Shown piece after piece: positions 41,941 through 57,171 of a DNA stretch of 64,000 bases. The notes beneath the pieces were generated by a model, which saw only the letters and a program-made list of their open reading frames with translations, was not told where the DNA came from and made no database searches. Source of the stretch: a bacterium. GTDB lineage: Bacteria; Patescibacteriota; Patescibacteriia; 2-12-FULL-60-25. Location: positions 1,429,580-1,493,579 of the forward strand of contig JAJYXM010000016.1 in assembly GCA_021796435.1 (NCBI GenBank), in the 5' to 3' direction. The translations under genes and the position numbers were made by a program. The first letter of the stretch is position 1. Each line of letters starts with the position of its first letter.

Positions 41941-41969
41941 TTTACAAAAAGGCTGGAATGTGTTTAGTT
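41941..41969 (+). promoter_or_regulatory. Promoter of the 101-residue protein gene
   Basis: TTTACA (41941-41946), 17-base spacer, TTAGTT (41964-41969). Confidence 0.55.
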
Positions 41970-41991
41970 TTCACTGCGAAAGCAGGAAACA

Positions 41992-42297
41992 ATGACAAAA
42001 GAAACCGAAGGCTCCGCTCCTTTCGCCGTGATCATCGACCTAGCGAAAAAAAGGGAAGATCTGGAAAAACCCTTACGGCTGATAGCCTGGGTCATGCGCC
42101 TGGATGGTGCGCGGATCATCTCGCGACGGCCAGGACGGATCGAGATGACGAAACAGAACAAGCGCAGCGTGATACGCATCACGCTTGCGAATCCCTTCGA
42201 ACGCGAAGCGGCTCTCTACGTCGAGAAAGGCGAAGCAATACCACAGGCGGTACTCTACGACCTTGCTCTCTGGCGGCGCGAACACGGCCTGGGATGA
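41992..42297 (+). CDS. Small hypothetical protein
   Basis: 101 residues, soluble, basic, unrecognised: MTKETEGSAPFAVIIDLA, then LRLIAWVMRLDGARI and RIEMTKQNKRSVIRITLANP; a final helix (LYDLALWRREHGLG). The AGGA before the ATG and an upstream promoter support it. A rho-independent terminator follows at once. No partner gene in the same direction. Confidence 0.6.
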   Translation: MTKETEGSAPFAVIIDLAKKREDLEKPLRLIAWVMRLDGARIISRRPGRIEMTKQNKRSVIRITLANPFEREAALYVEKGEAIPQAVLYDLALWRREHGLG

Positions 42298-49334: not shown

Positions 49335-49488
49335 TGCTCATTCGGCCAGCCGAATCAATCCATCGCGATAAAGGCGATTTCAGCTCTCCGAACGAGCAGA
49401 GGAGACGGAAGTCTTCCATCTCCTCGAGAACTTTCCCGATAACGCCGGGGCAGCGGATCCGATTGAACGCCGGATCAGACGATTGAGG
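49335..49488 (-). repeat. Conserved 3' element, copy A
   Basis: 154 bases after the stop of paralog B1. 147 of 154 bases equal copy B (50359-50512). Contains hairpins ATTCGGC/GCCGAAT, GAGGAGA...TCTCCTC with an inner GGAA/TTCC, and GATCCG/CGGATC. No long reading frame shared by both copies. Confidence 0.75.
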
Positions 49489-49502: not shown

Positions 49503-50282
49503 TCAGTAGTAGAACTCGTAACCCTCGTGCTCCTGACCGAGCTCGCGCGTCGCAACACGCCAGAGCGTATTCGCTGCGCCGCAGTAGCCGTCCCCGAACC
49601 TGGAAGTCTTCTCATACACGAAGACTTTCTCCAGGGCCTTCATCCAAGGACCGAAGAAGACGGTTTTGCAGATGCCGAACCTCAGAATCACCTCGGAAAG
49701 CCTCCGGCTAGCTTCATCGAGATCGAACCCCTCAATCAACCTGACGCGCCCGCCATCGGTCGCGACCTTCCACCCGAGTGCCGTCCGGAGGTTCGGCGCC
49801 GCCTCGTAGTCGAAGTCACCGTCCGAGTCGACATGTCCGATGCACTTACCGTTGAGCTCGATGGCGATTCGCAACGAGACCTTGCCAGGATCGACACCAA
49901 ACCGTTTGGCCAAGCCGCCGTGTCGCAGGCCGCAGAGGTCCGACAGGAGCATCTCGACCCGTCCCGCTTCTCTTCCATCGCGGAAACGTACGCCGTTCGG
50001 GAAGCGCTCGTTGTTCGAGAAGTAGAGCACCCCGATCACGATCATATCTTGGATTCCGAGACGAGCGAGGTTATCGCGGATCAGATGAGGAGTCAGCGCG
50101 TCGGCCTCCCAGTAGAGACGGCTCGCCAACTGGTCGAGCGACTTGTACTCGGGGTCGTCCTGGGCATCGCCCAGGCTGATTCCGTTCATCCTGGAGACGT
50201 GGTCGCGCCTGGCCGAGGCCTGATCGCGCGCCGTACGTGACTGGGACGAAAGCTCGAAGAAACGATTGACGTTTTCGTTCAT
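49503..50282 (-). CDS. Hypothetical protein, tandem paralog B1
   Basis: 259 residues; unrecognised. A helical N-terminus, then VIGVLYFSNNERFPNGVRFR, REAGRVEMLLSDLCGLRHGG, LGWKVATDGGRVRLIEGFD and a C-terminus LWRVATRELGQEHEGYEFYY. Paralog of the gene at 50536-51315. AGAGG lies before the ATG. No signal or membrane segment. Well-kept blocks (EAGRVEMLLSDLCGL, WRVATRELGQEHEGYEF) suggest a functional core. The 154-base element that follows is almost the same in both copies. Confidence 0.75.
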   Translation of the reverse strand: MNENVNRFFELSSQSRTARDQASARRDHVSRMNGISLGDAQDDPEYKSLDQLASRLYWEADALTPHLIRDNLARLGIQDMIVIGVLYFSNNERFPNGVRFRDGREAGRVEMLLSDLCGLRHGGLAKRFGVDPGKVSLRIAIELNGKCIGHVDSDGDFDYEAAPNLRTALGWKVATDGGRVRLIEGFDLDEASRRLSEVILRFGICKTVFFGPWMKALEKVFVYEKTSRFGDGYCGAANTLWRVATRELGQEHEGYEFYY

Positions 50283-50358
50283 GGCTACCTCTTTCGAGCA
50301 GTTTCATCTGACATGTCTCTCGGATATTCCACCGATCGATCATGTTTTGATTCCTAAC

Positions 50359-50512
50359 TGCTCATTCGGCCAGCCGAATTAATCCATCGCGTTAAACGCG
50401 ATTTCAGCTCTCCGAACGAGCAGAGGAGACGGAAGTCTTCCATCTCCTCGAGTAGATTCCCGATAACGCCGGGTCAGCGGATCCGATTGAACGCCGGATC
50501 AGACGATTGAGG
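50359..50512 (-). repeat. Conserved 3' element, copy B
   Basis: 154 bases after the stop of paralog B2; see copy A. The inner hairpin reads ATCGCG/CGCGAT here (5-6 bp) and ATCGC/GCGAT in copy A. Confidence 0.75.
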
Positions 50513-50535
50513 GTTGGTGACGCGAGGGGCAGCCG

Positions 50536-51315
50536 TCAGCACCAAAACTCGTAGCCCTCGTGCTCCTGACCGAGCTCGCGGGTAGCGACGCGCCAGAGCG
50601 GGATTGCTGCGCTGAGATAGCCGTCTTTGGACTGCGAAGTCTTTTCGCACACGAAGATCCTCTTGAGGGCGTCGAAGTAGGGGCCGAAGAATGTCGGTTT
50701 GTCGGTCCCGTGCGTGCGGATCGTCTCCAGCAGCAATCGCCCTGCGGTGTCGGGGTCGAAACCCTCGATGAGACGAGTACGTCCACCGTCGGTGGCGACT
50801 TTCCATGCCAACGCGGTCTTGAGACTTGGAGCTTTCAAGAAGTCGAAGACACCAGCTGCATCAATCCTGCCGACAACCATTCCATCCTTCTCGATGTTGA
50901 TGTCAAATGAAACAGCTTCTCTATCAACTCCCAACTTCACTGCCAGGCCTTCACTACACAGCCCACAAAGATCAGACAACAACATCTCGACCCGCCCAGC
51001 CTCTTGGCCGTCGCGTCTACGAATGCCCCTCGGGGTGCGCTCGTTCTCTGAGAGATGAAGCACTCCAGTCACGGACATGTCTTCGATGCCCATGTTACTG
51101 AGGTTTGCGCGGATCGCCTGGCTTATGAGAAGCCGCTCCTCGCACAAGAGAAGATTGAAGACATGCTCGAGAGCCTTGTATTCGGGATCAGATCGGTAGT
51201 CGTAGTCACGCCCCCGAGCCTCAAGCAGCTCGAACTCTTTGGCGCTCACCCTCTTCCATGCAGCATTAACTGCGGTTGCCATTGTTCGAATCTTCACAAG
51301 AATCTCATTGTCCAT
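50536..51315 (-). CDS. Hypothetical protein, tandem paralog B2
   Basis: 259 residues, same length as its neighbour B1 and clearly related, about half of residues identical by eye. Shares EAGRVEMLLSDLCGL, WKVATDGGR, FFGP and WRVATRELGQEHEGYEF. GGAGG stands 8 bases before the ATG. Divergence at the N-terminus (MDNEILVKIRTMATAV against MNENVNRFFELSSQSR) suggests different partners. Function unknown. Confidence 0.75.
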   Translation of the reverse strand: MDNEILVKIRTMATAVNAAWKRVSAKEFELLEARGRDYDYRSDPEYKALEHVFNLLLCEERLLISQAIRANLSNMGIEDMSVTGVLHLSENERTPRGIRRRDGQEAGRVEMLLSDLCGLCSEGLAVKLGVDREAVSFDINIEKDGMVVGRIDAAGVFDFLKAPSLKTALAWKVATDGGRTRLIEGFDPDTAGRLLLETIRTHGTDKPTFFGPYFDALKRIFVCEKTSQSKDGYLSAAIPLWRVATRELGQEHEGYEFWC

Positions 51316-51405
51316 GGTCCAAACCTCCCGACACCATCGTTCCTGCGGAATGCAGGGTTATCGACAGTGCCCGACCTGAAACGACGACTATTTTTTTTGA
51401 CCATG

Positions 51406-51434
51406 AGATTCCCCGGTTAAACCGTGGAATGACA
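51406..51434. repeat. Dispersed palindromic repeat, AACCGTGG type, copy 1
   Basis: GATT-CCCCGGTTAAACCGTGG-AATGACA; almost identical to 51866-51894. Confidence 0.7.
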
Positions 51435-51516
51435 TGGACGAAAAATCATTGGTTTTCATCGACTCGGGTCGTATTAAATTGTCAAAGTTTCGTAGGGGTT
51501 TACCCTAGTGCAGATT

Positions 51517-51540
51517 TTTACGTTAATTTACGTAAAAAGC
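51517..51540. promoter_or_regulatory. 24-base palindrome TTTTTACGT...ACGTAAAAA
   Basis: Arms TTTTTACGT and ACGTAAAAA (9 bp, perfect) around TAATTT, overlapping the T-run of the small-RNA terminator. May be an operator or part of the terminator. Confidence 0.5.
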
Positions 51541-51586
51541 GGCTAGGTGCGTGGGCACTCAAAGAGAGACCACACACCAAACCGCC
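51534..51586 (-). terminator. Terminator of the candidate small RNA
   Basis: Two-part stem GGCGG...GGTGTGTGG with CCCACGCACC...GCCGC, followed by TTTTT at 51534-51538. Confidence 0.8.
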
Positions 51587-51671
51587 TATTTTACCTATCC
51601 TATGCCTGCTCTCTCCTTCAGACATGGGATGTCTTTAGTTTTCAAGCACGACCTTCCATTTCAGCTTTAAC
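51534..51671 (-). ncRNA. Candidate small RNA, about 138 nt
   Basis: Complete transcription unit on the - strand: promoter TTGACA-17-TATAGT and, about 85 bases on, a terminator GCGG...GGTGTGTGG/CCCACGCACC...CCGC then TTTTT. No protein of credible length or ribosome binding site. Inside, the hairpin ATGTCTG/CAGGCAT (one G-U pair) shows AAGGAGAGAG in its loop. Class unknown; it is not SRP, RNase P or 6S by any motif I can see. Confidence 0.65.
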
Positions 51672-51677
51672 AAAAAC

Positions 51678-51706
51678 ACTATAACACAGTTTTCATATTT
51701 TGTCAA
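51678..51706 (-). promoter_or_regulatory. Promoter of the candidate small RNA
   Basis: TTGACA (51701-51706), 17-base spacer, TATAGT (51678-51683). Confidence 0.85.
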
Positions 51707-51723
51707 GAGTAATGTTTACAAAA

Positions 51724-51739
51724 GATATAATTATATCTA
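51724..51739. repeat. 16-base perfect palindrome
   Basis: AGATATAATTATATCT in an AT-rich stretch upstream of the small-RNA promoter; possible operator. Confidence 0.5.
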
Positions 51740-51865
51740 TATTTAGCTGTTTTTATCGTAAATATGTAAATTTAGAGTAATTTATATTGTGCACATATTT
51801 TCAGAATCCCGGACCTGGCTGGAATGGCAAGTGGCGCGGGAATCACTGAAAGAACAGCCGGCACA

Positions 51866-51894
51866 AGATTACCCGGTTAAACCGTGGAATGACA
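51866..51894. repeat. Dispersed palindromic repeat, AACCGTGG type, copy 2
   Basis: Same core as 51406-51434: CCCGGTTAAACCGTGG-AATGACA, about 460 bases away. Confidence 0.7.
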
Positions 51895-52017
51895 AAGGGG
51901 TTGTGCCTTGCTATTTTATGAGCATTCTGGTAATTTTGCAGCACTTAATAACTACGCCTTTTCGGTCCGCAACGACGGACTGATCAGAGCGCGAATCCGG
52001 GCTCACTCGCCTATTCG

Positions 52018-54588: not shown

Positions 54589-54700
54589 AAAACCGACGGC
54601 GACCTCAGCTCGTATACCGAAGCTCGGTCGCCTTCCCTTGATCCGCGATGAAGTTCGTCACGGGCCAAGGGGAATGCTCCCCTGCTTAATAATTCAAATA

Positions 54701-54749: not shown

Positions 54750-54810
54750 AGATAGGCCAAACCTTACGCGAAGTTACGCGGGGCGTCGGTCCTAGAACAT
54801 ATTTTATAGT

Positions 54811-57171
54811 ATGCAAAACCAGAAAGAGTTTTCCATCGAATGGGGTGGCCGCACGCTTACGATCGGCGTCGGACGCCTGGCCCAACAGGCCAACGGCTCA
54901 TGCACGGTCCGCTATGGCGATACCCTCGTCCTCTGCACCGCGACCATGGGTGAGCTGCGTGAAGGCATCGACTTCTTCCCGCTGCAGGTCGATTTCGAAG
55001 AACGCATGTATGCCGCGGGGCGCATCAAGGGCTCCCGCTTCATCAAACGCGAAGGCCGTCCGACGGATGAAGCCATCCTTTCGGGACGTCTCATCGATCG
55101 CGCCATCCGTCCGCTGTTCGATGACCGTATGCGCAACGAGGTCGCGGTCGTGAGCACGGTCTTCTCGCATGACCAAGAAAACGACGCGGACATCCCAGGC
55201 CTCATCGGCGCCGCCTGTGCGCTCGCCATCTCAAACATCCCTTGGTATGGCCCGATCGTCGCTTTGCGCGTGGGCCGCATCGACGGCAAATGGATATTGA
55301 ATCCGACATATGCCGAGACCGACACGGGTGATCTGGACTTGGTCGTGGCCGGAGCAGACGGCAAGACGGTCATGCTCGAGGCTGGCGCCAAGCAAGTTTC
55401 GGAAGATGATGCCTATGCGGCCGTCGCCTGGGCGCTGGAACAGATGAAGCCGGTCATCGACTTGATCAACCAAGTCAAACAAGAGGTCGGCAAGACCAAG
55501 CTGGATCCGTTCTCACCCAAGACCGACGAAGAAAAGACAGCGCGCGCCGAACTCGACGCTCTACTCGAGACAGCACGCCAGTTCCTCATGACCCGCAAGA
55601 GCGAAAGCCTTTTCGCCGCTCCCCTGAAGACAAAGGCCGATCGCAAAGCTGCGGTCTATCGTCTGAAAGCGGAATTGGATGCGCACCTCACGGAAGCACA
55701 GACGCCGAAGGAGCTGCGCAAGAAGGCGCTCGATATAGTGGATGAATTCGTGGACAACGAAATCACGCATCTGATTCTGGATGAAGGACGTCGCGCAGAC
55801 GGTCGTGCTTTGGATGAGATCCGTCAGCTCACGGCTGAAGTGGATCTGATACCGCGCACGCATGGTTCCGGTTTGTTCCAACGCGGAGCAACGCAAGTCC
55901 TCTCTTCCGTGACCCTCGGTTCGCCTGGCATGGAACAGACCCTGGACACCATGGAATACCAGGTGAAGAAGAGATATTTCCATCACTACAATTTCCCCAG
56001 TTACTCGGTCGGCGAGACCAAGGGCAACCGCGGTCCGGGACGTAGGGAGATCGGACACGGCGCTTTGGCCGAACGCGCGATCATGCCGGTATTGCCGACA
56101 CGTGAAGATTTCCCGTACACGATCCGCGTAGTCTCGGAAGTCCTGGGCTCCAACGGTTCCAGTTCTATGGGCGCGACTTGCGGTTCGACCCTGGCCTTGA
56201 TGGATGCCGGCGTCCCGATCAGCGCACCGGTAGCGGGCATCGCCATGGGCGTCGCCAGCGACGAGAAGACTGGGCGCTTCCGCGTCTTCACTGATCTGCA
56301 AGACCTCGAAGACGGCGAAGGCGGCATGGACTTCAAGGTCGCGGGCACGCGCACCGGCATCACCGCGATACAGATGGACACCAAGACGCACGGCATCCCG
56401 CTCGAGACCGTCAAAGAGACGCTGGACATGGCGCGCGACGCGCGTTACAAGATCCTGGACGTGATCGAAACCGCATTGCCAGCGCCGCGCAGCGAGCTCT
56501 CCAAGTGGGCGCCGCGCATCGAATCGTTCCATATCAACCCAGACAGGATCCGCGACGTCATCGGACCGGGCGGCAAGATAATCAACGAGATCATCGCACA
56601 ATGCAAAGTACAGATCGACATCGAAGATGATGGCTTAGTCATGATCACGGCCAACGATCCGGAAGGCATGAAGAAAGCCGTGGATTGGGTCAAACAATTG
56701 ACGCGTGAAATCGCAGTCGGCGAGATCTTCACCGGACCGGTGACACGCATCATGGACTTCGGCGCATTCGTCGAGATCGCCCCGAAACAGGAAGGCCTGG
56801 TCCACATCAGCGAACTGGCGCCGCATCGTGTCGACAAGGTAGGAGATATCGTGAAGATCGGCGACATGGTGACAGTCAAGGTATATGAGATAGATTCCAT
56901 GGGTCGCATCAACCTATCCATCAAACGAGCTTCACCTGACTACAAGGAAAGCGATCGCGACAGCCAGCCGTTACGTCGCAGCAACGGACCACGTCGCGAT
57001 GGCAATGGCGGAGGCGGCCGCGGATTCGATCGCGGACCACGTCGCGATGGCTTCGACAGAGGCCCACGTCGGGACGCTAACGGACCACACAGGAACGATG
57101 GATTCGATGCACCTAAAAGGGATAACGAGCCGCCGAAGCCCCCGGCAGACCCATCTATTTTAGGGTTCTAA
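54811..57171 (+). CDS. pnp: Polyribonucleotide nucleotidyltransferase (PNPase)
   Basis: 786 residues. Phosphorolytic 3'-to-5' RNA exonuclease and polymerase. Two RNase PH domains (first with RYGDTLVLCTATMGELREGI; second with RTHGSGLFQRGATQVLSSVT), KH domain with VIGPGGKIINEI, S1 domain with GAFVEIAPKQEGLVHISEL, and then a Gly/Arg/Asp-rich tail of about 70 residues (RRDGNGGGGRGFDRGPRRDG), longer than in E. coli. Such an RG tail may bind RNA or partner proteins. ATG at 54811; leader hairpin at 54701. Confidence 0.97.
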   Translation: MQNQKEFSIEWGGRTLTIGVGRLAQQANGSCTVRYGDTLVLCTATMGELREGIDFFPLQVDFEERMYAAGRIKGSRFIKREGRPTDEAILSGRLIDRAIRPLFDDRMRNEVAVVSTVFSHDQENDADIPGLIGAACALAISNIPWYGPIVALRVGRIDGKWILNPTYAETDTGDLDLVVAGADGKTVMLEAGAKQVSEDDAYAAVAWALEQMKPVIDLINQVKQEVGKTKLDPFSPKTDEEKTARAELDALLETARQFLMTRKSESLFAAPLKTKADRKAAVYRLKAELDAHLTEAQTPKELRKKALDIVDEFVDNEITHLILDEGRRADGRALDEIRQLTAEVDLIPRTHGSGLFQRGATQVLSSVTLGSPGMEQTLDTMEYQVKKRYFHHYNFPSYSVGETKGNRGPGRREIGHGALAERAIMPVLPTREDFPYTIRVVSEVLGSNGSSSMGATCGSTLALMDAGVPISAPVAGIAMGVASDEKTGRFRVFTDLQDLEDGEGGMDFKVAGTRTGITAIQMDTKTHGIPLETVKETLDMARDARYKILDVIETALPAPRSELSKWAPRIESFHINPDRIRDVIGPGGKIINEIIAQCKVQIDIEDDGLVMITANDPEGMKKAVDWVKQLTREIAVGEIFTGPVTRIMDFGAFVEIAPKQEGLVHISELAPHRVDKVGDIVKIGDMVTVKVYEIDSMGRINLSIKRASPDYKESDRDSQPLRRSNGPRRDGNGGGGRGFDRGPRRDGFDRGPRRDANGPHRNDGFDAPKRDNEPPKPPADPSILGF

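Follow-up and report, generated by a model that had tools for sequence, protein, structure and literature searches.

A conserved, terminator-bounded non-coding RNA beside rpsO in a patescibacterial genus, a candidate leader RNA of variable orphan genes

The minus strand at 51534–51706 of the analysed DNA (the window, a stretch of 64,000 nucleotides from a bacterium with a tiny genome) is predicted to harbour a genuine non-coding RNA unit that is under selective constraint and has a promoter and a terminator of its own. The locus shows the features of a discrete bacterial sRNA unit, namely its own putative promoter, a 3′ intrinsic terminator and conservation without a coding pattern. As an RNA family it would be new, though of a type already described, and within the genomes examined it is confined to a single genus. 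Our preferred reading, held with a little less than even confidence, is that of a terminated 5′-leader small RNA that gates variable orphan genes located behind it. In the following, G000 denotes the genome of the window, G001 and G003 belong to the same genus and G002 is a sister species.

Genomic context and transcript boundaries

All elements reported in the initial annotation for 51534–51706, which gave no strand, were found at these coordinates on the minus strand. The sigma-70-type promoter at 51678–51706 (−35 at 51706–51701, −10 at 51683–51678) reads TTGACA-17-TATAGT and deserves its earlier description as near-perfect, with 11 of 12 positions matching the consensus and a TG preceding the −10 element. 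With up to one mismatch allowed, 64 kb would be expected to contain this pattern 0.07 times; the exact form occurs once in the window. The promoter hexamers are the same in the homologous locus of G001. At the other end, the strong intrinsic terminator claimed previously was recovered on the minus strand at 51534–51586. It consists of a stem of 7 + 9 pairs around a U-U mismatch, the 14-nt loop UCUCUCUUUGAGUG (51569–51556) and a UUUUU tract (51538–51534), with a folding energy of −31.1 kcal/mol (z = −7.3). This hairpin was overlooked by the automatic terminator scan because its loop exceeds 8 nt. From the presumed start at about 51671 to the end of the U-tract at 51534 the distance is exactly 138 nt, in line with the approximately 138 bases proposed earlier; the 5′ end of the putative RNA (51534–51671, minus strand) is thus derived from the promoter and the 3′ end from the terminator.

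The gene order rpsO, divergently oriented RNA, cargo gene, FHA-like gene and xerC-like gene is common to G000 and G001 (the names of the last two genes were assigned by inspection). In G002, an orthologous promoter (TTGACAAAACC), conserved also upstream of its −35 element, is followed directly by an orthologous leader, a Shine-Dalgarno (SD) sequence and a gene, and the RNA is missing from the −10 element to the U-tract. G003, the fourth genome of the genus, is uninformative here, its contig ending 63 bases upstream of rpsO. On the plus strand, a divergent promoter-like site recognised by its sequence pattern (TTTACA-17-TATATT, 51715–51743) faces rpsO and implies a 5′ UTR of about 340 nt for this gene.

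Conservation and distribution of the RNA

Comparison of 51534–51653 with G001 yielded 115 identical positions out of 120, including two stretches of 55 and 50 nt without a single difference. The background identity between the window and the G001 contig is 77.8% on average over 13,730 fully aligned segments of 120 nt. The RNA stretch is the single best of these 13,730 segments and exceeds both rpsO (91% identity between G000 and G001) and pnp (83% overall and no more than 60% at third codon positions). At the background rate, 115 matches in 120 positions have a probability of 3e-8, uncorrected for the number of segments. Conservation has a sharp edge at the U-tract, with 95.8% identity inside and 78.8% right beyond it; just upstream of the promoter, the value is 68%. 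All 55 bases of the terminator region (51534–51588), loop included, are the same in G001. Since terminator stems normally drift, this hairpin probably does more than stop the polymerase. Other very conserved stretches shared by G000 and G001 lie around the start of pnp on the plus strand (54623–54651 and 54808–54851); the first of these, upstream of pnp, may be a regulatory leader.

A covariance search for homologues, as suggested in the initial annotation, was run with a model built from two sequences against 380 genomes from the class and 41 from the family, and retrieved only G000 and G001. Three additional weak matches (21–26 bits) were rejected as chance; two are located at the starts of coding genes, one of them isoleucyl-tRNA synthetase-like, and the third in an unrelated inverted repeat. 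Apart from G001, a DNA search of 57 relatives brought up nothing but short chance matches and promoter-like fragments rich in AT. When the exact core pattern was searched across the genome contig collection, the one match was the public record of G001 (Patescibacteria MAG Ess09-17, JAVHLR010000002.1), so the sole homologue stems from a metagenome-assembled genome. Viral contigs, searched twice, contained no match, and phages contained chance fragments only. Rfam 15 returned no family for the whole window at the gathering threshold; families such as 6S, riboswitches and abiF were among those with no match at or above it. Nothing credible was found either in the 801 nt around the RNA (E up to 5) or at the G001 and G002 loci (E up to 1). 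A limited literature search yielded no reports on small RNAs of Patescibacteria.

Predicted structure and loop–loop complementarity

The entire minus-strand RNA folds with a z-score of −3.2. For the 84 nt that precede the terminator, the gain over shuffled sequences is small or nil (z about −0.9 in G000 and −1.6 in G001). Exposed GGA motifs had been noted before, and the RNA indeed contains GGA motifs as well as the loop AAGGAGAGAG. In the predicted fold, the loop belongs to hairpin 1 (UCCCAUGUCUG-AAGGAGAGAG-CAGGCAUAGGA, 51598–51629, minus strand), which has 10 pairs and one mismatch and whose loop at 51618–51609 contains the SD-like motif AAGGAG. Hairpin 1 competes with a short AGACAU...AUGUCU hairpin and is part of one of two near-isoenergetic folds (−46.6 vs −47.3 kcal/mol). 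Its pairs are invariant between G000 and G001, so these two homologues, the only ones at hand, lend no covariation support to the fold of the RNA itself.

The loop AAGGAGAGAG is complementary to the sequence UCUCUCUUU in the terminator loop over 9 bp (−11.9 kcal/mol), a value matched by 0.5% of shuffles in run length and by 0.03% in energy. An independent repeat search identified the two loop regions as a 15-nt inverted repeat. Given that both loops are identical in G000 and G001 and complementary over 9 bp, an intramolecular kissing contact between AAGGAGAGAG and UCUCUCUUU is plausible as the core of the function of the RNA. In a search for an antiterminator helix, the 9-bp matches to the terminator arms were only GU-rich or differed between the genomes.

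Region downstream of the terminator

Two further hairpins follow on the minus strand. The first, UUUUUACGU...ACGUAAAAA (51515–51538), reuses the U-tract of the terminator as part of its 5′ arm and shows one compensatory double change and one consistent single change relative to G001. The second, UAGGG-UAAAC-CCCUA (51493–51507), emerged from the comparison with G001, in which three of its five pairs are changed on both sides and all are still paired. Taken together, 4 of the 15 pairs carry double-sided compensatory changes in G000 and G001, and 96.7% of cells are paired, as against 37–60% when the alignment is slid by 1–3 columns; in this comparison of two sequences, 32 of 500 control shuffles reached the same compensation count. 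RNA-level selection beyond the terminator would imply readthrough; most simply, part of the transcripts would continue past the terminator, and the two hairpins would belong to the readthrough RNA. The compensation could instead reflect DNA palindromes.

Next on the minus strand is the structured leader of the downstream gene (51313–51485), which ends in the SD sequence GGGAGG and an ATG. It folds with z-scores of −3.4 to −4.9 in G000, G001 and G002, with the same helices in all three species and 96% of cells paired. A REP-like dispersed repeat, ATTCCACGGTTTAACCGGGGAAT, occurs at 51391–51425, at 51868–51895 and in about ten further copies in G000; one copy is inserted into the leader in G000 only.

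The cargo behind the leader differs by genome. G000 encodes two 259-aa paralogues that are 53% identical (50536–51315 and 49503–50282, both minus strand), G001 a 178-aa protein and G002 a 108-aa protein; the genes of G001 and G002 look unrelated to the cargo of G000. Searches against Pfam, NCBIfam, PHROGs and PADLOC, including those with the first 259-aa protein, assigned the cargo to no known family and no toxin family. The structural model, obtained from two sequences and of moderate confidence (pLDDT 70), has no PDB match with E below 0.7. A tie between the RNA and the 259-aa paralogues was rejected, as the paralogues are absent in G001, which keeps the RNA.

Adjoining rpsO, the region 49503–51315 (minus strand), together with loci in G001 and G002, is a cargo-swapping site, in which the orphan genes differ from species to species and are flanked by a structured leader and a structured trailer that are both conserved. 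The non-coding trailer is present behind each cargo gene (50350–50520 and 49335–49488, minus strand) and contains the hairpins GAGGAGAUGGAAGACUUCCGUCUCCUC and UGCUCGUUCGG...CCGAAUGAGCA. Its two copies are 95% identical to each other, compared to 53% for the proteins, and identity is 94% in G001 and 87% in G002. The trailer is possibly a second RNA element or a recombination site.

A terminated leader RNA as the preferred reading

The mechanism that we infer from the sequence, covering transcription, readthrough, loop–loop contact and regulation, builds on the predicted placement of the RNA and its terminator in the 5′ leader of a gene that follows on the same strand. Most transcripts started at the strong promoter would stop at the intrinsic terminator and be released as a stable small RNA, while a fraction would read through into the structured leader and one or more orphan genes, so that the terminator would set the level of cargo expression. 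Kissing between AAGGAGAGAG and UCUCUCUUU might compete with the binding of an external partner (an mRNA, a protein or the anti-SD sequence of 16S rRNA) and thereby tune termination, shield the released RNA or do both. Alternatively, the contact may keep a CU-rich seed hidden until a partner opens the RNA.

Two observations suggest that the RNA heads a longer transcript, because in G002 the promoter and the leader flank the place where it is absent, and because the hairpins past the terminator show compensatory changes. The description as an independent transcription unit was therefore retained in part. The unit has its own promoter and terminator, but the orthologous promoter of G002 would directly drive leader and gene. 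The term independent is probably incomplete, since the cargo operon seems to be what this promoter serves. In G000, scans of the minus strand from 51678 to the start of the cargo gene revealed no second promoter-like site, and neither did those of the matching stretch of G001; a leader promoter of a non-consensus type is possible.

Two characterised RNAs have a comparable layout and function in the manner that we propose for this locus. Rli51 of Listeria monocytogenes is a 121-nt sRNA in the mpl leader that acts both as an attenuator and in trans (PMC11394854). As in our locus, a promoter is followed by an RNA of about this length whose intrinsic terminator lies within the 5′ UTR of the following gene; Rli51 features conditional readthrough, and its short RNA is also trans-acting (PMC11394854). 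The likeness is one of layout, no relation in sequence being known. Here, the downstream gene varies by species, and no convincing antiterminator fold was found. IsrK of the Salmonella prophage Gifsy-1 yields a short terminated RNA and a readthrough mRNA from one promoter (PMC4825925). The single promoter and the variable genomic region are shared, and two isoforms are likewise presumed here. Unlike our locus, IsrK is prophage-encoded and operates in an antQ/anrP circuit, nothing similar to which was seen.

Alternative explanations

The main rival of the gating reading, in our view unlikely but to be taken seriously, is a self-standing trans-acting sRNA that ends at the terminator and has no regulatory link to the cargo. 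Such an RNA would use either its 5′ segment, which is conserved and single-stranded, or the CU-rich loop of the terminator to pair with mRNAs, and the cargo would have a separate, unrecognised promoter. This would account for the finding that the RNA is nearly invariant while the cargo is swapped completely between G000 and G001, which is unexpected for a dedicated cis regulator and thus speaks against gating. It is also consistent with the arrangement in G002, in which the cargo would be expressed without the RNA, and with the fact that both loops and the 5′ segment UCGUGCUUGAAAACUAAAGACAUCC are fully conserved. What speaks against it is the failure to find a second promoter in G000 and G001 and the absence by family search of Hfq, the usual helper of sRNAs, from G000, G001 and G002. 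In addition, a seed-target scan with CTTTAGTTTTCAAG in three genomes gave no excess of matches over the reversed control. The sole antisense match of 18 out of 20 positions (41954–41973, to nt 28–47 of the RNA), just upstream of an ORF at 41992–42297 on the plus strand, has an E value of 0.85 and no counterpart in the syntenic contig of G001. It is likely due to chance, yet this genome offers no better single target candidate. With the SD of the cargo gene, the loops and the 5′ segment mostly paired no better than shuffles did (for the 5′ segment, 18 of 500 in G000 and 151 of 500 in G001). Small RNAs with CU-rich loops, e.g. RNAIII and RsaE, bind Shine-Dalgarno regions. The invariant CU-rich loop UCUCUCUUU on a strong stem is similar to these, but it is not UCCC, and its pairing with the cargo SD does not exceed that of shuffles.

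It is improbable that the RNA is the antitoxin of a type III toxin-antitoxin system of the ToxIN/AbiF kind, in which an RNA and an attenuating terminator precede a toxin gene whose product is bound by the RNA. The order of promoter, RNA, terminator and gene is that of the AbiF system of C. difficile, with its 132-nt RCd22, four-U terminator and readthrough into abiF (PMC12373285). Both systems have a structured RNA of about 132 nt, a short-U terminator and readthrough into the next gene, the latter being presumed for our locus; they differ in that the abiF motif (Rfam RF03085) is absent here in Rfam scans, the cargo has no Abi_2 domain and the cargo is not constant. Judged by the features of type III systems (PMC8860590), the terminator between RNA and downstream gene is present, but tandem repeats in the RNA and a ToxN/CptN/TenpN/Abi_2-type toxin are absent. 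The cargo has neither a toxin family in the four databases nor a fold match, and a constant RNA beside unrelated proteins argues against a cognate pair.

We regard it as quite improbable that the locus yields a short mRNA encoding either a peptide of 35 aa (MSEGESRHRI...) or a leader peptide of 5 aa (MEGRA/MENRA) instead of a non-coding RNA. Both frames are open in G000 and G001 and end at the same stop. Neither ATG is preceded by an SD sequence, however, which upholds the earlier statement that a credible ORF is lacking, and the longer frame extends through the terminator. Conservation in the 35-codon frame does not look like protein constraint because the substitutions fall 6/0/3 across the codon positions. 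Four codons changed synonymously and four non-synonymously, and the central 17 codons are without a synonymous change, which fits constraint on the RNA.

There is little to be said for a DNA-level element, such as a recombination or integration site of the cargo locus, that is not transcribed. The swapping of cargo between conserved flanks and the presence of inverted repeats would agree with it, but a consensus promoter and a terminator in the right order and at the right distance, together with the sharp end of conservation at the U-tract, would not.

An SD mimic that titrates 30S subunits via AAGGAGAGAG is hardly credible. The part of the earlier SD-mimic proposal that stood is the complementarity: AAGGAG in the invariant loop is a perfect 6-nt complement of the anti-SD in the 16S tail of the same genome (CACCUCCUUUCU; −9.1 kcal/mol). 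However, this is a single site of ordinary strength, the 9-bp partner inside the RNA is stronger, and one RNA would have to rival all mRNAs.

CsrB, CsrC and RsmY are RNAs that sequester CsrA, and the suggestion of a CsrA sponge of this type has practically no probability left. The discrete, predicted terminated transcript and three GGA motifs, one of them in a predicted loop, resemble these RNAs, but the proposed check for a CsrA gene found no match by family search in the genome (100% complete by its estimate), the same search being positive in control genomes, and the sponge reading thus fails, barring a CsrA-like protein that shares no sequence similarity; furthermore, there is one such loop instead of an array, and two of the three longer motifs (AUGGAAGG and AUAGGAUAGG) are altered in G001, which keeps only their GGA cores.

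Significance for the genus

A more far-reaching form of the gating reading, which we consider rather doubtful, is that a constant RNA with an internal kissing loop gates any orphan gene swapped in behind it, making the locus a regulated cassette site next to rpsO. If true, such a site, bounded by the conserved, structured leader and trailer, would exist in a genus that lacks Hfq and, in the genome of the window, also CsrA. A short RNA that is more conserved between two species than the ribosomal-protein and pnp genes would point to RNA regulation under strong selection in these bacteria. The locus is compact and would be suitable for testing riboregulation free of Hfq and CsrA in a heterologous host.
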